Below, piece by piece: positions 12,602 through 22,148 of a stretch of 64,000 bases of DNA. The stretch spans positions 851,263-915,262 of the forward strand of contig KE159628.1 in assembly GCA_000403335.2 (NCBI GenBank), read 5' to 3'. The notes below the pieces were generated by a model that searched no databases, was not told the DNA's origin, and worked only from the letters and a program-made list of their open reading frames with translations. How positions within the stretch are numbered: position 1 is the first letter of the stretch; each line of letters opens with the position of its first letter. The stretch comes from Lachnospiraceae bacterium MD335 (GTDB lineage: Bacteria; Bacillota; Clostridia; Lachnospirales; Lachnospiraceae). The translations under genes were made by a program, and so were the position numbers.

Positions 12602-14641
12602 CTATTTAATCATGATGGCATCCAATCCCGCCGTATCGGAAATCGGGTTGGATTCACAAACAACCGCCTGCAGCTTCTCAAGCTCCTTGAGCGGTGCAAG
12701 CGAGGTCACATAGTTGTCCGTGATGTTAAGAAGCTTTAAGTTTTTCATTTGCGCCGCAAATTCCACGCTGTTTATGGTTAAATCCTCAAGCATGAGTTCT
12801 TCCATGCCGTGCAGGTTTGCAAGTGCGCTTTGAAGCGCTTCGACATCAATATCCTCGCGGTCCGACCACTGGTCCGTGCTGTACTTGTAAATTTGGGAGT
12901 TGTTCATGTCGAGCAGGCGCAGACGTTCATTTGCCGCAATACTGTCCGGATCTATCATAAACGACGTATATTCAAGATGCAATTCCTCAAGGTTTGGCAT
13001 GTTGATAATCGGATGAATGCCGCTCCAAAGATAGCTGGAATAGAAATCCAGGTATTCAAGTCCCTCAGCCTCTGAAATCTGCTGTATCATTTCCGGTGAA
13101 ACAGAACTGTTTATCACGGATAAAGAGCGCAGGTTCGGCAGAGACAAAAGTGCATTGGTGCTGCCAAAATCGCCGTATCCGCCGTCATCAATCGTCAGTT
13201 CTTCCACATTTGTCATGTATTTCAGATTGCCAAAGCTCTCGAAATTTCCGAGATAAAGCTTTGTGACGTTGCTAAGCGCCGACAAATCCGGCATATCGGA
13301 GTCGTCAAAGTCAAAGCTTGTCATTAAACCAAACTCCCTAAGCCCTGTTAAATCTTTCACAAACTCGTAATCCGCCGTCTCATAATTTTTCAGCAGGTAT
13401 AGCTTCTCAAGTCCCGTACATGCCGCAAGCGGATTAAAATCGAGAACCTTGCTGCCAACAATGGTAAGCTCCTTTAGGTTGTCGAACTTTGTCAGAAAGC
13501 TTACGTCCCGCAGCGAGTTTGACTCGATGGAGAGTGATTCGAGCTGCGTTGCCTGATACAATGCGGACAAGTCATCAATATAGTCTCCATCCTCAATGGT
13601 TAAATGTTTCAGGTTCGGAAGGTCCAAAATGCCGGAAACATCCGAGAGCATGCCGCAGTCGATATAAAGACGTTCAACATTAGTAAACGCACTCAGATCC
13701 GAAATGGAAAATTTGACATCATACAGACCAAGCTCCGTAAGCTGAGACGGGTTAACCGCGTTTTCAATATCGCTGATATATCCGTCGTAATAGAGCGTGT
13801 GCAGTTTGTCAAGACCGTCCAAATTTAAATTGCCGTAGAAGGCTTCCTCTAAGTAAAGCTCTTCAAGATTTACAAAGCAGGTCAAATCTTCGCTCATATC
13901 ACACTTTTGTGAGGCAGGGTAAACCGTTCCGCCCGTGCCGTCCGACAACACATAATCCACCGCCATATAATCGTAGCCTGCCTCATATATACGAAGCGAA
14001 ACGAGCTGTTCGGAGTCATCTGCGGTAAGCGCACTGCTGTCTTTTTCAAAAATAAAACACATCATCTGTGCGAAAAATTCCGACTGCGGAACCGTTATGG
14101 CAGCCGTTTCCTGTATGGGCTGCGTGTCATCATATGCATTGTCGTCCGCGGTATAACCGCCGGCTCTTCTGTTATCCGTATCCTCTTTTGAGGCGGTATG
14201 ATAGCGGTTGGCGGATGCCGTGAAAAAACGCATGACAAGGGGAATTAAAATTGTCAAAAACACAATCAGAAGCGCGGCGCATATAATCAGTATTTTGCTG
14301 TTTGATTTGGGACGTTCGTCCCCGTAGCGCTCCCGCCTTTGTGCGGTGATTTCAGCAAAGCTTGGAGTGGAAGCATTGTACTGCTGCTGGTTTAAATATT
14401 GTTCATAAGGTCTTAAATTCTGCGCGGACGCAGCTCCCGAAGCGGTACTGCCCTGTCCGGTGTTGGAAGACTGGTACCGGGCACGGGAGCTTTCGCCTGT
14501 GTCTGCGGTTGTACCTGTGGATGTGGTCGTATAGGAAGACCTGCCAAAGGATTCGTTGTAGCCGCAGTCAGGACAGGTAAGCACTCCGTTTACCTTACCC
14601 ATTTTTGCGCTGCAAAGAGGGCATTTTTTTTGAAATGGCAT
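12602..14641 (-). CDS. Membrane protein with N-terminal zinc ribbon and extracellular leucine-rich repeats
   Basis: A 679-residue protein. Residues 7-26 form a zinc ribbon (CPLC ... CPDC). A Ser/Thr/Gln-rich linker leads to one transmembrane helix at about 115-138 (ILIICAALLIVFLTILIPLV). The rest, from about residue 220, is a series of leucine-rich repeats of the internalin-like/SDS22 kind (for example LYIDCGMLSDVSGILDLPNL, LSNVTKLYLGNFESFGNLKY). The topology predicted is zinc ribbon in the cytoplasm and LRR arc outside. There is no N-terminal signal peptide and no wall-sorting motif. It lies directly upstream of folD. The family pairs a housekeeping-like ribbon with a protein-binding surface; its partner and function are unknown. 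Confidence 0.85.
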   Translation of the reverse strand: MPFQKKCPLCSAKMGKVNGVLTCPDCGYNESFGRSSYTTTSTGTTADTGESSRARYQSSNTGQGSTASGAASAQNLRPYEQYLNQQQYNASTPSFAEITAQRRERYGDERPKSNSKILIICAALLIVFLTILIPLVMRFFTASANRYHTASKEDTDNRRAGGYTADDNAYDDTQPIQETAAITVPQSEFFAQMMCFIFEKDSSALTADDSEQLVSLRIYEAGYDYMAVDYVLSDGTGGTVYPASQKCDMSEDLTCFVNLEELYLEEAFYGNLNLDGLDKLHTLYYDGYISDIENAVNPSQLTELGLYDVKFSISDLSAFTNVERLYIDCGMLSDVSGILDLPNLKHLTIEDGDYIDDLSALYQATQLESLSIESNSLRDVSFLTKFDNLKELTIVGSKVLDFNPLAACTGLEKLYLLKNYETADYEFVKDLTGLREFGLMTSFDFDDSDMPDLSALSNVTKLYLGNFESFGNLKYMTNVEELTIDDGGYGDFGSTNALLSLPNLRSLSVINSSVSPEMIQQISEAEGLEYLDFYSSYLWSGIHPIINMPNLEELHLEYTSFMIDPDSIAANERLRLLDMNNSQIYKYSTDQWSDREDIDVEALQSALANLHGMEELMLEDLTINSVEFAAQMKNLKLLNITDNYVTSLAPLKELEKLQAVVCESNPISDTAGLDAIMIK

Positions 14642-14821: not shown

Positions 14822-16069
14822 ATGGAAACAAATGGAAGTATCCGAAAAAAGCTTCTTCCGATAGTTATATTTCCGATTATTTTATTGAGCTGTCTGATTA
14901 CGGTGACCGGTGTGACATTGTTTTACGGTTTTTATACGCAGAGTATTCGAAATGAACTGGTATCGACCACGGATACGCTGCTGGACTGCCTGAATTTTGC
15001 GATAAGCGGAGATTATCGCTACGAAAATGAGATGCTGCTCAAGGGAGATTTAAATATCACGGATTCCACAATGCTTTTGCGGATTAAGGAACAGTCACAG
15101 ATTGATACGACTTTCTTTTGGGATGATTTGCGTATCATGACGACGATAGAGGACGAATACGGTGTTTCTGCCGTAGGCACAAAGGCGGGCAATGAGGTGA
15201 AGAACGTCGTATTAAAGCAGGGACAGCGGTATTTTTCAAAGAATTTGACAATAAACGGCGACATGTACATTGGATATTATGTCCCGCTTAAAAATACCAG
15301 CGGTGAGGTTGTAGGCATGATTTTTGCCGGAAAACAGAAGGATTTGGTATATGAGAAAATAACAGAAGTTATTATATGGTTTGCTGTATTTTCCGTTATT
15401 ATGATTGTTGTTTCTATTGTTATTACACTAAAATTCTCGTCGAGTATGATAGCGGATATTAACAGCATCAATCGTTTCCTGAAAGCGATTTCGGAAGGAA
15501 ATCTGAGGTCGACGCTCGGAAACCGCGTTGTGAACCGCAATGACGAAATCGGTTCCATCGGACTTTGTGCGCTGAAAATGCGGGATAATCTTCAGAAGCT
15601 GATTGAACGGGATGCGCTGACAGAGCTATACAACAGAAGAAGCGGTCATAATATGCTTTCAGCAATCTCACAGAGGAATGAGCTGTACTGTGTTGTTATG
15701 TGTGATATTGATTTTTTTAAGAAAGTCAATGATACTTATGGGCATGATGCGGGAGACTACGTACTTCAGCAAGTATCCAGGTTAATTAAGAATAATGTTT
15801 CGGACTACGGTTTTGCAAGCCGTTGGGGCGGAGAGGAATTTTTACTGGTGTATAAGCTTGGATATGAGGATACGGTTGCGAAAACCCGGCTGCTGCGTGA
15901 AAGTATTTTAGCGCATGATTTTACATACGAAGGTACGAAAATGATTATAACAATGACGTTCGGCGTTGCAGACGGAACGGAGTACATCCGGTATGAAAAT
16001 GTGATTAAGAAAGCGGACGAAAAGCTTTATGTAGGTAAAAACAATGGAAGAAATCAAGTCGTTGCATAG
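14822..16069 (+). CDS. Membrane diguanylate cyclase with extracellular Cache-type sensor
   Basis: A 415-residue enzyme making cyclic di-GMP from GTP. A first transmembrane helix at about 15-40 is followed by an extracellular Cache-like sensor (about 45-170, containing IGYYVPLKNTSGEVVGMIFA), a second helix at about 178-203 and a HAMP-like linker. The GGDEF domain occupies about 260-412, with NDTYGHDAGDYVL and the active-site GGEEF at 336-340. The product-inhibition RxxD site is absent: the positions nine and six residues before GGEEF are Ser and Gly. The enzyme should therefore be active and not feedback-inhibited at this site. The ribosome site is a G-rich AGGGGG. The next gene, a binding lipoprotein, begins 12 bases after the stop, suggesting that lipoprotein may present a ligand to this sensor. 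Confidence 0.9.
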   Translation: METNGSIRKKLLPIVIFPIILLSCLITVTGVTLFYGFYTQSIRNELVSTTDTLLDCLNFAISGDYRYENEMLLKGDLNITDSTMLLRIKEQSQIDTTFFWDDLRIMTTIEDEYGVSAVGTKAGNEVKNVVLKQGQRYFSKNLTINGDMYIGYYVPLKNTSGEVVGMIFAGKQKDLVYEKITEVIIWFAVFSVIMIVVSIVITLKFSSSMIADINSINRFLKAISEGNLRSTLGNRVVNRNDEIGSIGLCALKMRDNLQKLIERDALTELYNRRSGHNMLSAISQRNELYCVVMCDIDFFKKVNDTYGHDAGDYVLQQVSRLIKNNVSDYGFASRWGGEEFLLVYKLGYEDTVAKTRLLRESILAHDFTYEGTKMIITMTFGVADGTEYIRYENVIKKADEKLYVGKNNGRNQVVA

Positions 16070-16081
16070 CGGGAGGTATTT

Positions 16082-16876
16082 ATGAAGAACGCTTTCAGAA
16101 AATCAATTTTCATGGCTGCAATCGTCTGCTTGATTATGATAATGTCAGGCTGTGGGGAAGAAGCAGTCGCCAATACAGTCAATTCGCTTGATGACCTGAG
16201 CGGAAAGAAGATCGGCGTACAGCGCAAAACGACGGGGGACATTTATGCCAGTGACATTGAAGATGCCGAAGTTGTACGTTTTAATAGAGGGATCGATGCG
16301 GTGACAGCATTAAAAAAGGGCGTTATTGATGCGGTGATTATCGACGATGAGCCCGCGAAGGTGTTTGTGGAGGAAGTCAGCGGTCTAACGCTTTTGGATG
16401 AGCCTTTTGCGGAGGAGGAATACGGAATTGCGGTCAGTAAGGATAATCCGGAGCTTTTAAAAGACATTAATGCTGCGTTGGAAAAGCTTGAAAAGGACGG
16501 AACGCTGGATCACATTAGGGATGCCTGGATTATGGGAGAGGCAAAGGTTACTGCCTATGAGGGACAGGACAAGGATTCGTATGCGGACGGCGTTTTGAAA
16601 ATGATTACGAACGCGGAGTTTCCGCCGTATGAAAATATTACGGAGGACGGGCAGATTGTGGGAATTGATATTGACATTATGAAAGCAGTCTGCGACGAAC
16701 TGGATATGAAGCTTGAAGTGGAAAATACGGCGTTTGATTCAGTGATTGTGTCCGTGGAGAGAGGCATGTCGTCCGCGGCGGCTTCCGGCATCACGATTAC
16801 GCCGGAGCGGTTGGAGCATGTGGATTTTTCCAATCCGTATACGACGGCAAAACAGGTGGTTATTGTGCGCGAATAA
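16082..16876 (+). CDS. Circularly permuted amino-acid-type (SBP_bac_3) binding lipoprotein
   Basis: A 264-residue lipoprotein: signal peptide with lipobox MSGC (Cys24). The mature part holds both halves of a family-3 solute-binding protein but in reversed order. Residues about 35-150 match what is normally the second half (SLDDLSGKKIGVQ, TTGDIYASDIE, AVIIDDEPAK, DEPFAEEEYGIAV, then EKDGTLDHIRDAW). Residues about 172-264 match the normal first half (LKMITNAEFPPYE, GQIVGIDIDIMKAVCDEL, TPERLEHVDFSNPYTTAKQVVIVR) and the gene stops there. A linker of about 20 residues joins the old C-terminus to the old N-terminus. All the usual ligand-pocket elements remain, so this looks like a working permutant and not a fragment. 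No permease or ATPase is adjacent. It is likely co-transcribed with the Cache-GGDEF protein upstream. Confidence 0.85.
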   Translation: MKNAFRKSIFMAAIVCLIMIMSGCGEEAVANTVNSLDDLSGKKIGVQRKTTGDIYASDIEDAEVVRFNRGIDAVTALKKGVIDAVIIDDEPAKVFVEEVSGLTLLDEPFAEEEYGIAVSKDNPELLKDINAALEKLEKDGTLDHIRDAWIMGEAKVTAYEGQDKDSYADGVLKMITNAEFPPYENITEDGQIVGIDIDIMKAVCDELDMKLEVENTAFDSVIVSVERGMSSAAASGITITPERLEHVDFSNPYTTAKQVVIVRE

Positions 16877-16892: not shown

Positions 16893-16927
16893 TAAGCCGT
16901 TTGGCGCTGTGGCGCCGGCGGCTTTTT
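16893..16927 (+). terminator. Terminator (possible attenuator) before the protease gene
   Basis: A GC-rich hairpin (AAGCCG...GGCGC, loop TGT, GGCGCC...CGGCTT) with a few G-T pairs is followed by TTTTT at 16923-16927. It ends only about 20 bases before the start codon of the protease gene, so it both closes the upstream operon and sits where it could limit read-through into the next gene. Confidence 0.75.
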
Positions 16928-16946
16928 GAAAAGGAACGGGTTTGTA

Positions 16947-19900
16947 ATGATGATGGGATGGATAAAAAGACGTGCGGCATTGCTGCTGTCGGCGGTGCTT
17001 TTGCTGTCACAGTGTTTAGGGACAACGCTGTATGCGGCGGAATTGAATAGCGGAACAGAGAATACGACCGAAACTGTGCCGAAGGATGCGAACGAATATT
17101 CGAAAGTAAATATGACGGATTTTGGGACGGAACCCGCAACGGAAAACAGTACAGAGGTTTTGCCGGAGAATGAAACAGTGACGGAATCCGAAACGGAACC
17201 AGAAACCATAACGGAACCGAATTCTGAAGCAGAATCGGAAACGGAACCGGAATCCAAAACAGAGTCAGAATCGACAATAGAAACCGAAACGGAATCGGCA
17301 ACAGAATCTCAAACAGAATCCCAAACGGAAATGATGACGGAAGGTCAGCCGGAGCCCAAGAGTGAAACCGTGCCAAAGGAAGAACTGGAATACCCGTGTC
17401 CTGCGGCGCTGGAACCGGAAAACATTCCGCATGACGAAAATCAGGACGCTTTCACCGACAGGCTTGTCAATGGGAAACGGTTAAGAAGTACACTCCCTGC
17501 AAGCTATGACGCGCGTACACAGGGATATTTACCCGCAGTTAGAAATCAGGGAAGCTGGGGAGCGTGCTGGAGCTTTTCCTTAACAGGAGCAATGGAAGTA
17601 TCGGCAGTAAAAGATATGGGAATAACACCGGAGACAATTGATTTGTCAGAGCATCATCTCGCATATTTCGGATACAATACGGGCTATGACGCGCTTGACA
17701 ATGCAAATGGGGATACTATGACCTGCAGTCCCGCAAGCTATTATCTGACGAACGGCGGAAATGATATAAGGGGCGTTGTCCGTCTGATGAACTGGAACGG
17801 CGGTGCAGGTGAGCAGGATTACCCGTATCCGGCGGGCAGCCTTCCCGCCGCGCCAAAGAGGGAAGCGGCGCAGGACGCAAAGGTTTATCTTGAAAACGCG
17901 TACCGCTATAACTTTGCGGGAGAAGAAAACAAGGCAGAGGCAATCAATGTGGTCAAAAAGATGATTGCGGATTACGGTGCGGTATCGTGGTCTTATTATC
18001 AGGATGCCAAATACGCAAATGAGGCAACCGGCGCATACTACAACAATGTTGGAGGCTCCGGCACGGCAAAAACGAACCATGCGATTATGGCGGTCGGATG
18101 GGATGACAGTTATTCGAGGGAAAATTTCCGCTCCGACAATCAGCCTGAAAACGACGGGGCATGGATTATCAGAAACAGTTGGGGTATAAACAGCGGAGAT
18201 AACGGTTACTACTATATGTCCTATGAGGATAAGTCACTAGGTTCAGGCAATCCGGTGTATGCCGTAACCGTCTGCGATTCCGCGAAATATGACAACAATT
18301 ATTTTTATGGAAACACGGCATATTCTTCTGCAACAATTGCAGTGCGGCGTGCGGCACAGGTATACAAAATCAAGAGCGAAGCCGCAGTGCGCGAAAAACT
18401 GACAGCAGTGTCATTTTTAATCGGAACCTCGGATGTGGATTATGAGCTGCAGATTTATAAAAATCCTGATGAAGTAAATGGAATTGTGGAAAATCCCACA
18501 AGCGGGACGCCTATGTTGGACGAACCGCAAAAAGGGAAAACAAACTATGCGGGATTTCATACAATTGCGCTTGATACGCCCGTTACGCTCGATGCGGATG
18601 ACAGCGTGTCCGTTGTTCTGACCTTTCCGAATACGAGACCTGCCATGTACTTTGACAGGAGCTACACATCCGATAACGGACAGCAAAAAGGGGAGCACAT
18701 TCTTCAAAAAGGACAGAGCTTTTACAGCGATGGGCTGACTTCGTGGCAGGATAATGCTGCAAAAAACAGAACGTTTCGCATAAATGCGCTTACAGTGGAC
18801 TGCGATGATATAATAAAAATTCCCCAAATAAAGAGCGCAGAGGTTACGGAAGCGCAAGGATTTGACCAGCTTCCGCAAATTCATATACAATGGTCGAAAT
18901 GTTCGGACGCAGACGGCTACAGACTGTACCGTTCGGCGGATAATAAAGAGTATGCGTTGATTTATACGGCAGACCGCACTGTCAGGGAATACACGGATAC
19001 CCTTGCGGAGCGGACTGCGGCACAATATTATTACAAAGTGGAAGCGCTTTACGGTGACACGGCAGAGACATCACAGACCGTAAGTAAAAGTGTAAAGGGC
19101 GTTATCAGAGCGCCGGCGCTGACGCTTTCCGATTATGACGGATACAAAGCAGTTCTGACGTGGAACGCTGTCAGTCAGGCGGAAAGGTATGAGCTTTGGA
19201 AATGCGCCGATGGCGAGAGTGCGGACAGTAAGGAGGAGCATATTGCGGATTTTGCGGCTGGGGACGCGTATATATGTCCAATTTGGACATACACGATTGA
19301 CACAGACGGCTGGGCGCTTGGAACGTATGCGTATAAGGTGCGTGCCGTGTACCGCGGTGAATATACGGATTGGGGTTCGGTTCGCATCAATCGGAATTTG
19401 GTATGGAAGCAGAACAGCTATGACAGGGCGCGTTTTGAGTGGCTTCCTGTACAGAATGCCGTTTCCTATAAACTGTTCCACAAAGTAAACGGAAAAACAT
19501 TTTCTGCAACAGTACAAAACACGAGCGCGCTGATGTCCATGAAAAGCACATCCTATCTTCCCTGCGACGAGCATCAATATTATGTAAATGCATATGATGC
19601 GGCAAACAATGTGCTTGAGACATCATCGACAATCGTGTTTCGTATGACACCGGATGCGGTAAGCATTGACAGCCTGGAATATGATTATGCAAATACGGTT
19701 ACGATTACATGGAGCGGTGGATTCGGCGCCGAAAACATGGCGGTATACCGGAGCGAAAGTCCGTCGGAGCAGGGCGTGCTGATTGCGGAACCAAAGGCAG
19801 CAGAATTTATGTTTGCCGATGCGGTACACAAAGGAAAGGAATATTGGTATACACTTGTCCCGAATGTAAATGCAACGGACGGCGAAACGGTTACGGGGAT

Positions 19901-22148
19901 GCCGGTACAATCTGATAAAATTATAACATTTCCCGAGGCAGTGACGCTTGAAACGGCGCAGTATAATGGCGAAGACGGTATCAGCCTTGTGTGGAAACCA
20001 GCCAGGGGTGCGGAAGGTTATCTGATAGAACGAAGCGATAATCAGAAAGACTTTGCTGCGGCGGGCACGATAGCAGGCGGCAAGAATACGGCTTATACGG
20101 ACAGGTCGGTGAAGGCGGGAAACCGCTACCGTTACCGTGTGAAGTCCTATTACACGGCAGAGGACGCAAGCCAGTCTTTTGCAGCGGCACAAAATTCGTT
20201 GGAAGCAAGCATTTTGCCAAAACCTGTGTCAATTTCAAAAATTGCGGAGTTAAAGCGGGAGAGTTCGGACAGCGGGCAGGACAGGGCGCGCGTTGCACTC
20301 TCATGGAATGCAGTGGAGGGGGCGCAGTCGTATGCGGTATACAGAAGCGAGCTGTCCGACGGAAAAGAAGAACAATATGTATGTATTGCGCAGACGGTCA
20401 CGGATACCCAATACATTGACACCGGTGCACTTTCGGATACATCGTACGGTTATAAAGTAACCGTTGAGATGAACGGTATTGTTTCCGGGCTTGTAAATAC
20501 GGCGGCGGCGCTGATTACGACAAAGCCCGTTTTGACGGCGCTTACAATGTCTGAAGAAACCGTGGAGATTGCAAGGAATACGGAATATGCATTTGCAATT
20601 ACGGCGGTACCGGCACACTATCCGTATCGTCAGGAGCTTGTATGGTCCGCAGCCGACGAAAACGCAGCTGCGTTGGAAGTGATACAAAAAAATGACACGC
20701 TTGTCATAAATGGAACCGACGGCAAGGAAGTGCTGCACCTTTCGGACAATAAAATCCATGCGGCGGGCGAGTCCCAAACCGTGCGGATTACACTGACTGC
20801 CGCAATCGACGGGGTGTCAGTGTCTTGTGCCATTTTTGTCTACAGCGACAATTTTTGGGTAAACGGCGTGAAAGATCTTACCTACACGGGAGCTGCACTG
20901 ACGCAGGAGCTTGCAGTATATGACGGAAAGCGGCTTTTGGCGGAGGGTACGGATTACACGGTTTCCTATAAAAACAACGTGAAGGTCTCAACGGATGAAA
21001 CAAATCCGGCAAAAAAGCCTGCCGTAATCGTAAAAGGAAAGGGCAGCTATTTTGGTACGCAGACGGTTTATTTTGAGATTCTTCCCGAGCCGGCTTCGGA
21101 CGCCGGAAAACGCTCCATACTAAAAACAAAGGTGAAAAACATCGGTACAATCGCGTATGAGGGGGCGGCTTTGGAGCCGAAGCCTGTCATTACGGACGGC
21201 AGAAAGACACTTACCGAAGGCGTAGACTACACACTTTCTTATCAAAACAATGACGGTGCGGGCAAGGCAGAGGTTCTTATAACCGGAATCAATGCCTATA
21301 AGGGGACCCGGAAAGTCAGCTTTGCGATTACCTGCAATTTGTCCAAAATCCAGCCTGAGCTGGTGCGCGTCACGTTTGATACGCCGGAAGTTCCGTATAC
21401 AAAAGGCGGTGCAAAACCCAGGCCCAAGGTATACTGCGGCGGCAGGCTGCTCATGGAAGGAACGGATTATAAGCTTTCCTATAAGAATAATAAAGCCATT
21501 GCGTCTGCATCGGACAAAAAAGCGCCTATGGTTATTGTTACGGGAAAAGGCAGCTACAAGGGAAAATGCAGCGCCGCGTTTGCCATTGTAAAACAGAACA
21601 TCGGAAACCTGACACTGACGGCAAAGGATAAACGCTGTACCGATAAGGCGGGAAAATTTACGACAAGCTTTGTCATCACCGACACGGACGGAAAAAAACT
21701 GTCGGCGGGAAAAGATTATGACAAGAATTCCGTTCAATATACTTATGCCGAAACCGGAAAGCCTGTCGGAAAAACGGACATTGTGCCGGAAGGGACGACG
21801 CTTCGCATTACCGTAAACGCTGCGCAGACAGGGTCATATACCGGAAGCATAAGCGGTGAATACCGTATAACGGCGTACGATATTGCAAAAGCAAAGGTTA
21901 CGGTCACGGCACAGACTTATACAGGAAGCGAGATTGAACCAAATTCGCAAACTGGTGTTCGCGTTATGTTTAAGGGTTATGAAAATGAGCTGACTGAGGG
22001 TACGGATTATGAAATTACGAGATATGACAATCATATACGGACAGGAACGGCAAAGCTGTATATTAAGGGAATCGGTGATTTCGGCGGAACAAAGACCGTG
22101 AAGTTTCAGATTAAATCAAAAGCCTTTAAATGGTGGTGGCAGGATTGA
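16947..22148 (+). CDS. Secreted papain-like cysteine protease with fibronectin and Ig-like repeats
   Basis: A 1733-residue surface protein from the ATG at 16947, which follows AAAAGGAA; a TTG seven codons earlier is possible but lies inside the terminator tail. A signal peptide (LLLSAVLLLSQCLGTTLYAA) is followed by a Glu/Thr/Ser-rich spacer to about 150. The peptidase C1A domain (about 165-420) has RNQGSWGACWSFS with catalytic Cys207, the His of TNHAIMAVGWDD (His378) and IRNSWG with Asn410. A lectin-like beta domain follows, then about five fibronectin-III repeats (about 625-1195), a Big-2-like domain, and tandem MBG/Ig-like repeats (about 1310-1733; SYKNN, KGKGSYFGT). The tail is KWWWQD, with no LPXTG. 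It likely cleaves host, dietary or bacterial proteins at the cell surface; the target is unknown. Confidence 0.9.
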   Translation: MMMGWIKRRAALLLSAVLLLSQCLGTTLYAAELNSGTENTTETVPKDANEYSKVNMTDFGTEPATENSTEVLPENETVTESETEPETITEPNSEAESETEPESKTESESTIETETESATESQTESQTEMMTEGQPEPKSETVPKEELEYPCPAALEPENIPHDENQDAFTDRLVNGKRLRSTLPASYDARTQGYLPAVRNQGSWGACWSFSLTGAMEVSAVKDMGITPETIDLSEHHLAYFGYNTGYDALDNANGDTMTCSPASYYLTNGGNDIRGVVRLMNWNGGAGEQDYPYPAGSLPAAPKREAAQDAKVYLENAYRYNFAGEENKAEAINVVKKMIADYGAVSWSYYQDAKYANEATGAYYNNVGGSGTAKTNHAIMAVGWDDSYSRENFRSDNQPENDGAWIIRNSWGINSGDNGYYYMSYEDKSLGSGNPVYAVTVCDSAKYDNNYFYGNTAYSSATIAVRRAAQVYKIKSEAAVREKLTAVSFLIGTSDVDYELQIYKNPDEVNGIVENPTSGTPMLDEPQKGKTNYAGFHTIALDTPVTLDADDSVSVVLTFPNTRPAMYFDRSYTSDNGQQKGEHILQKGQSFYSDGLTSWQDNAAKNRTFRINALTVDCDDIIKIPQIKSAEVTEAQGFDQLPQIHIQWSKCSDADGYRLYRSADNKEYALIYTADRTVREYTDTLAERTAAQYYYKVEALYGDTAETSQTVSKSVKGVIRAPALTLSDYDGYKAVLTWNAVSQAERYELWKCADGESADSKEEHIADFAAGDAYICPIWTYTIDTDGWALGTYAYKVRAVYRGEYTDWGSVRINRNLVWKQNSYDRARFEWLPVQNAVSYKLFHKVNGKTFSATVQNTSALMSMKSTSYLPCDEHQYYVNAYDAANNVLETSSTIVFRMTPDAVSIDSLEYDYANTVTITWSGGFGAENMAVYRSESPSEQGVLIAEPKAAEFMFADAVHKGKEYWYTLVPNVNATDGETVTGMPVQSDKIITFPEAVTLETAQYNGEDGISLVWKPARGAEGYLIERSDNQKDFAAAGTIAGGKNTAYTDRSVKAGNRYRYRVKSYYTAEDASQSFAAAQNSLEASILPKPVSISKIAELKRESSDSGQDRARVALSWNAVEGAQSYAVYRSELSDGKEEQYVCIAQTVTDTQYIDTGALSDTSYGYKVTVEMNGIVSGLVNTAAALITTKPVLTALTMSEETVEIARNTEYAFAITAVPAHYPYRQELVWSAADENAAALEVIQKNDTLVINGTDGKEVLHLSDNKIHAAGESQTVRITLTAAIDGVSVSCAIFVYSDNFWVNGVKDLTYTGAALTQELAVYDGKRLLAEGTDYTVSYKNNVKVSTDETNPAKKPAVIVKGKGSYFGTQTVYFEILPEPASDAGKRSILKTKVKNIGTIAYEGAALEPKPVITDGRKTLTEGVDYTLSYQNNDGAGKAEVLITGINAYKGTRKVSFAITCNLSKIQPELVRVTFDTPEVPYTKGGAKPRPKVYCGGRLLMEGTDYKLSYKNNKAIASASDKKAPMVIVTGKGSYKGKCSAAFAIVKQNIGNLTLTAKDKRCTDKAGKFTTSFVITDTDGKKLSAGKDYDKNSVQYTYAETGKPVGKTDIVPEGTTLRITVNAAQTGSYTGSISGEYRITAYDIAKAKVTVTAQTYTGSEIEPNSQTGVRVMFKGYENELTEGTDYEITRYDNHIRTGTAKLYIKGIGDFGGTKTVKFQIKSKAFKWWWQD

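Follow-up and report, generated by a model that had tools for sequence, protein, structure and literature searches.

A naturally circularly permuted binding lipoprotein has been described in Treponema pallidum: TpMglB-2 (Tp0684), assigned to 'Type Ic / Cluster Bc', for which a subclass 'c' was proposed (PMC4990184). According to the available text of that report, the protein has a type I fold, a glucose ligand and a fourth crossing, and related forms are found in Gram-positive gut bacteria (PMC4990184). Among the matches listed and the open-access literature, TpMglB-2 is the only case of natural permutation in an importer binding protein that we found in print, which is weak evidence of absence. 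OpuAC/ProX, considered as a possible known permuted family, was dropped as a candidate, the terms 'permut' and 'dislocat' being absent from the available text of PMC2861598. Control of a c-di-GMP enzyme by a solute-binding protein (SBP) is known from the NspS-MbaA system of V. cholerae and S. meliloti, in which the gene for NspS, a PotD-like protein resembling transport SBPs, lies beside the gene for MbaA, a membrane GGDEF protein that additionally contains an EAL domain (PMC9993111). In the ArtI-STM1987 system for arginine sensing, a Cache-type diguanylate cyclase with a dCache_1 domain requires the putative arginine SBP ArtI (review PMC8846402).

The window analyzed here, a stretch of DNA of 64 kb, contains a plus-strand ORF with an ATG start (16082-16876) that encodes a 264-aa lipoprotein, as stated in the preliminary description. 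The protein matches Pfam SBP_bac_3 (PF00497) with an E-value of 2.8e-34 (118.2 bits against a gathering score of 26.4), and it is, practically beyond doubt, a natural circular permutation of a family-3 (type II) solute-binding lipoprotein. The best Pfam stretch places profile positions 1-91 of 132 on residues 172-263; when the halves were scanned singly, residues 24-157 matched profile positions 97-130 and residues 166-264 matched positions 1-92. The NCBIfam models give the same picture: the best stretch of TIGR01096 aligns its positions 23-117 with residues 168-263, and the cystine-binding model aligns its positions 138-261 with residues 30-151. In PDB chain 4zv1 (AncQR, a solved ancestral binder), residues 108-231 correspond to window residues 32-150 and residues 8-103 to window residues 168-263. 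Aligned separately with family-3 proteins, each half thus matches its expected part of SBP_bac_3, in swapped order. The segment order is C1-C2-N, and the canonical linear order (the N-half, then the C-half) was not observed; therefore, we classify the protein as a permuted variant and not as a standard SBP_bac_3 member. The permutation proposed in the preliminary description stands, supported also by the conserved order in relatives described below; the lobe topology proposed with it is not supported, and the family breadth and the GGDEF partner were absent from that description. In family profiles the swap is hidden, because the two halves go under one name.

A profile of 22 permuted sequences matched 410 PDB sequences at E<=1e-5, and among the best 60 of these the best stretch spanned both halves only in 6h30, a tandem SBD1-SBD2 construct. 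In such GlnPQ-type constructs the C-half is followed by an N-half across the junction, as in the permuted chain, whereas the units themselves are canonical and complete. The PDB sequence matches listed for the window protein are family-3 proteins and their kin, which we take to represent the type II fold; the protein is thus not a member of Cluster Bc with its type I fold. It shares with TpMglB-2 the natural permutation in a binding lipoprotein, whereas the permuted SBP_bac_3 proteins differ in belonging to a type II amino-acid family, in having two predicted crossings and two different segment orders, and in their location mostly in amino-acid import operons. With GlnBP, ArtJ and AncQR of the SBP_bac_3 family, it shares homology in both halves and the core ligand residues; unlike these proteins of canonical half order, it appears to be cut in lobe 2 and, in the window, has no permease/ATPase partner. 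The ArtI model also matches the window protein, and its order is canonical. The lipobox cysteine C24 is kept in at least 90% of the 22 aligned sequences. Coordinates of the features are collected in Table 1.

Table 1. Features of the gene pair and predicted segments of the permuted binding protein
Feature	Coordinates	Strand	Basis
Membrane diguanylate cyclase of 415 aa (sCache_3_3-HAMP-GGDEF), encoded by the first of the two genes	14822..16069	+	Pfam; HAMP and membrane helices by inspection
12-nt intergenic gap with Shine-Dalgarno-like GGGAGG at 16071-16076	16070..16081	+	Sequence
Circularly permuted SBP_bac_3 lipoprotein (lobe 2 / lobe 1 C-segment / lobe 1 N-segment / lobe 2 strand)	16082..16876	+	Profile and PDB alignments, AlphaFold
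Signal peptide with lipobox, up to Cys24 (codon 16151-16153)	16082..16153	+	By inspection
Lobe 2, main segment (residues 33-109)	16178..16408	+	Alignments; probable lobe limits after GlnBP
Hinge crossing, canonical second (about residues 110-114)	16409..16423	+	Probable, after GlnBP limits; model strand 110-118
Lobe 1, canonical C-terminal segment (residues 115-150)	16424..16531	+	Alignments
Linker between old C and N termini (residues 151-167)	16532..16582	+	Row comparison
Lobe 1, canonical N-terminal segment (residues 168-252)	16583..16837	+	Pfam, PDB alignments
Hinge crossing, canonical first (residues 253-257)	16838..16852	+	Alignment with GlnBP 85-89
C-terminal strand QVVIVRE (residues 258-264), part of lobe 2	16853..16873	+	GlnBP small domain from 90; model strand 254-263

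An AlphaFold2 model of the window protein, built on the 22-row alignment, has a mean pLDDT of 93.5 and a pTM of 0.87. The top Foldseek match in the PDB was the GlnPQ SBD1-SBD2 tandem (E 3.7e-9), and the query-normalised TM-score did not exceed 0.50 in any of the best 50 rows, as expected when a sequential aligner meets a permuted chain. In GlnBP, the large domain comprises residues 5-84 and 186-224, the small domain residues 90-180, and the hinge residues 85-89 and 181 and 189 as printed in the available text (PMC13229503). Positions 159-251 of the permuted-family profile align with residues 3-95 of GlnBP (1ggg). Taken with the GlnBP domain limits, this alignment suggests that QVVIVRE at the C-terminus of the window protein is the counterpart of GlnBP 90-96, the opening strand of lobe 2. 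The break would thus fall within lobe 2, shortly after the hinge strand, with both crossings kept. The alignment does not support the earlier idea that both lobes became continuous and one crossing was cut: lobe 1 (about residues 115-252, including the linker at 151-167) is predicted to be continuous, and lobe 2 to consist of two pieces, 33-109 and 258-264. The lipid anchor would have moved from lobe 1 to lobe 2.

The swapped order is conserved. Of 98 related genomes (own included), 68 gave matches at E<=1e-10, often as half matches to proteins of canonical order; all 18 matches at E<=4.6e-52 (L001-L018) have the C-half before the N-half. Three weaker matches are near-full-length single-unit ORFs of 26-28% identity (L217, L218 and L219 in G058, G043 and G079; E 2.9e-14, 8.8e-13 and 1.5e-11, respectively); all three have the order C1-C2-N by inspection and segment matches (with weak C1 scores of 3, 3 and 12 bits), and are followed downstream by permease and ATPase matches. 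In L219, 'SESDL', the usual opener of the C-half, is located at the C-terminus, so that the cut lies about ten residues beyond that of the window protein, which hints at a separate permutation event. A scan for close relatives in one genome for each of 84,980 GTDB species yielded 24 loci, of which 21 are permuted, two are canonical (L059, L060) and one is a lytic-transglycosylase-like half match (L061). The two samples overlap: L002-L006 are the contigs of L039, L038, L040, L041 and L042, and the contigs of L047 and L048 recur in G738 and G646. A search for homologs of the same order, as suggested in the preliminary description, thus found it in 21 of 24 GTDB loci and in every strong match in related genomes; it also occurs in the complete chromosomes NZ_CP074197.1 and NZ_HF545616.1. 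Compared with four close relatives, NG86 dN/dS was 0.063-0.103 for the SBP gene (dS 0.99-1.68) and 0.057-0.105 for the adjacent GGDEF gene (dS over both genes 0.75-1.68).

In searches with permuted queries, whose counts do not give the share of canonical proteins, 34 of 393 genomes in the class draw (an even draw in which completeness of 90 or more was asked) had a match at E<=1e-50. Among the 30 of these loci that were examined, 24 have the order C1-C2-N (own included) and six have a second permuted order, C2-N-C1; the remaining four matches are a stretch typical of C2-N-C1 (G268) and three half-length matches running into stops. At the family level (299 genomes, about one per genus), 64 genomes matched at E<=1e-45, and 26 of the 27 new loci checked are C1-C2-N, the other being a canonical tandem array (G653). 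Two of these 26 permuted loci adjoin a GGDEF gene, and 24 adjoin permease and ATPase matches. Four of 398 genomes matched at the phylum level (own included), and G823, outside the class, is also C1-C2-N. The permuted protein is thus not isolated, and its relatives are mostly found in amino-acid import operons.

Association with importers was surveyed by tblastn, for which the queries were an ATPase, a permease domain and the GGDEF protein of the window; GGDEF-linked and importer-linked loci separated sharply. Permuted SBP genes are followed by a permease in all ten loci L049-L058 (an ATPase in nine, L051 ending at a contig edge), and both partners are present in 12/12 loci L076-L087 and in 23/23 loci L113-L135. 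In seven loci (L076-L082) the permease is fused in frame to the permuted SBP. Two adjacent permuted SBP genes precede one permease and ATPase in L199 (G572:C48).

In the C2-N-C1 proteins (L072-L075 and L136-L141), the chain runs from a point shortly before the second hinge to one behind a lobe-2 helix, and nine of these ten loci (not L136) have a permease match. It is the other hinge-side loop in lobe 2 that is cut in these proteins. The tandem array (L196, G653:C2, minus strand) is one ORF of 973 aa with the architecture (N-C1-C2)x3-permease, a GlnPQ-like array fused to a permease; its units are almost identical and canonical, and an ATPase gene is next to it. It is the kind of array expected as an intermediate of permutation by duplication. 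The canonical protein L059 (1658-2437) is nested in a permuted clade beside L057 (100/94), and the N-halves of the two are 88% identical and the C-halves 69%, a pattern suggestive of recombination or of reversion to canonical order. Canonical relatives are about 70% identical by halves.

On a 92-row tree, nine changes among the three orders were counted, of which well-supported branches force at least four for the C1-C2-N label and two for C2-N-C1; since the root was not inferred, these changes are not polarised into gains and losses. A single origin of C1-C2-N was rejected by the AU test on the 68-row tree (p 3.15e-05 for 34 rows alone; more weakly, p 0.0116, with L059), where long branches and a bootstrap that had not settled also limit any reading of gains against losses. 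A single clade for C2-N-C1 was not rejected (p 0.342), although the 92-row tree places its two groups separately. Five canonical proteins with long branches (L090, L091, L099, L101 and L111) and L112, which is the window again, were dropped before the latter tree was built; L061 is outside both trees, and the late loci L142-L219 are in neither. The chances seem even that the family-3 fold of Clostridia has been rotated repeatedly, with tandem SBP arrays as the route by which N-C1-C2, C1-C2-N and C2-N-C1 interconvert, at least one reversion to canonical order (L059) and slightly different cuts in separate lines (L219), placed in lobe 2 beyond a hinge strand, and that one line turned from import to c-di-GMP sensing.

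The window protein would belong to that line. The gene immediately upstream encodes a diguanylate cyclase with Pfam matches to sCache_3_3 (E 1.4e-27) and GGDEF (E 5.3e-33) and no EAL domain, and its GGEEF active site is intact in 12/12 orthologs. The same arrangement was found in the window and in 11/11 loci L038-L048, with 12-26 nt between the two genes in all 12, and the pairwise identities of cyclase and SBP are correlated (r=0.89, 66 pairs). No permease or ATPase partner was found beside the window SBP gene, and no HisM-type permease match was found near the SBP in 11/11 loci L038-L048 (within about 4 kb or to the contig end). The GGDEF-linked rows form a single clade (12 rows, 100/99) that joins ABC-linked permuted rows at 98/84 on the 92-row tree, and the 68-row tree has one context change among permuted rows. 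Among the 299 family genomes, 28 have a match to the GGDEF protein at E<=1e-70. A permuted SBP gene adjoins all three cyclases of at least 50% identity (the window's own and those of G646 and G738); for the other 25 matches (32-40% identity), out of 27 loci with related GGDEF proteins, no SBP segment was found in the flanks, which extended to at most 1.5 kb and were in some cases cut by contig ends. An SBP is thus not a general requirement of this kind of cyclase.

Other genes surround the pair. In the window, a large papain-like (C1) peptidase with a lectin-like domain and a Thr/Glu-rich N-terminal stretch is encoded downstream (16926-22148), with matches in L038-L042 and none in L043-L048. 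An LRR protein with N-terminal CxxC motifs (12602-14641, minus strand), divergent from the GGDEF gene, is likewise matched in L038-L042. Downstream of the pair in L044, L045 and L048 there are ABC ATPase-like genes of another type (33-34% identity) on the opposite strand. The record of L048 (JAMPFJ010000004.1) is titled as a Bacteroidales MAG, yet its contig matches one in G646 of the window's own family, and the title looks wrong or the bin mixed. No RNA families reached the gathering score within the 64-kb window.

The residues D88, F180, F218, R243 and T51 are kept in 12/12 GGDEF-linked rows, and T238 in 11; from the roles of their counterparts in LAO and GlnBP (carboxylate Arg, amino-group Asp, aromatics), we assume these six to be the usual amino-acid contacts. 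Gly49 is invariant in 45/45 ABC-linked permuted rows, whereas the GGDEF clade has Lys at this position in 11 rows and Glu in one; Gly236 is also replaced by Ala in six of the 12 rows of this clade. Position 89 is Asp in 12/12 GGDEF-linked rows versus mixed residues in ABC-linked rows, and positions 216 and 227 are further columns specific to the GGDEF clade. The earlier statement that all ligand-pocket motifs are kept therefore holds for the five invariant residues and fails at Gly49. This residue pattern fits ligand binding that was kept with altered specificity or docking.

We propose that the permuted SBP most likely senses a ligand outside the cytoplasm on behalf of the diguanylate cyclase whose gene lies just upstream, with a probability of roughly 60%. 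An amino acid-like ligand would be bound between the two lobes, and the closed holo form, held at the membrane by the lipid on lobe 2, would contact the sCache domain and alter the c-di-GMP output. The permutation may have arisen among importers of amino acids; probably an SBP was duplicated in tandem and in frame, after which the outer halves were lost (N-C-N-C to C-N), and the window's clade would later have swapped its transporter for a cyclase. NspS-MbaA and ArtI-STM1987 offer precedents, by analogy, for an SBP acting with a cyclase. As with NspS-MbaA, a binding-protein gene lies beside a membrane GGDEF gene, here in 12/12 loci; the window pair differs in combining an SBP_bac_3 protein with an sCache-HAMP-GGDEF protein that lacks EAL, and its sCache_3_3 domain also differs from the dCache_1 domain of STM1987. 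The sCache domain could itself sense a ligand, which counts against a sensor role of the SBP, as do the related cyclases without a neighbouring SBP segment, the other ABC ATPase-like genes downstream in L044, L045 and L048, and a possible weakening of binding by the change at Gly49.

It is unlikely, though worth serious consideration, that the protein is still a transport SBP, supplying an amino acid to an importer whose genes lie elsewhere in the genome. Most permuted relatives sit in import operons, and a search for HEQRo-type permeases gave matches over the cut-off in 5/8 genomes with the gene pair, as well as in 11/14 controls, so that the protein may feed a transporter in trans in those five genomes. 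Against this, the same search found no HEQRo-type permease over the cut-off in G000, the window genome (97.84% complete), G011 (98%) or G006 (76%), the first two being near complete; in addition, no HisM-type permease was found in G000 at E<=1e-15. In the window genome, the permuted SBP is thus without a visible polar amino-acid permease. The lack of a HisM-type match at 11/11 loci, and the pocket and other columns that differ between the GGDEF and ABC clades, also argue against transport. The only other SBP_bac_3 matches in the window genome (E<=0.001) are three multidomain signalling proteins with the architectures SBP-GGDEF-EAL, SBP-histidine kinase-receiver and SBP-PAS-GGDEF (loci L213:1261-4446, L214:3172-5982 and L215:3016-5289).

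That ligand binding was lost, leaving the protein to regulate the cyclase constitutively or to act as its structural partner, is distinctly improbable. The replacement of Gly49 at the ligand loop by Lys or Glu in all 12 rows could have weakened ligand binding, judging from the residue change, and the change of Gly236 to Ala in half of them points the same way; this is opposed by the five contact residues kept in 12/12 rows and by the strong purifying selection seen in dN/dS. Exchange of lobes between two molecules in a domain-swapped dimer, in place of self-closure, has a precedent in an engineered single lobe of ribose-binding protein that dimerises by segment swapping (PMC9815098). We consider it very unlikely here, given the high confidence of the single-chain AlphaFold model and the linker between the old termini: its length of 15-21 aa across 58 permuted rows (window counted twice) equals or exceeds that of the connectors of 13-14 aa between complete tandem units in L196. 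Joining of two partial genes by an assembly or frameshift artefact, for which no supporting point was found, has a negligible chance and was ruled out by the same order in many assemblies, complete chromosomes included, together with dN/dS well below 1.

Permutation is thus now found in the amino-acid family that models hinge motion, in two orders besides the canonical one. The natural pairs of permuted and canonical proteins, together with the tandem array, provide a way to test how chain order bears on folding, hinge dynamics and membrane docking. In the window's clade there is also a partner switch, from import permease to diguanylate cyclase, with a few clade-specific residues to probe.
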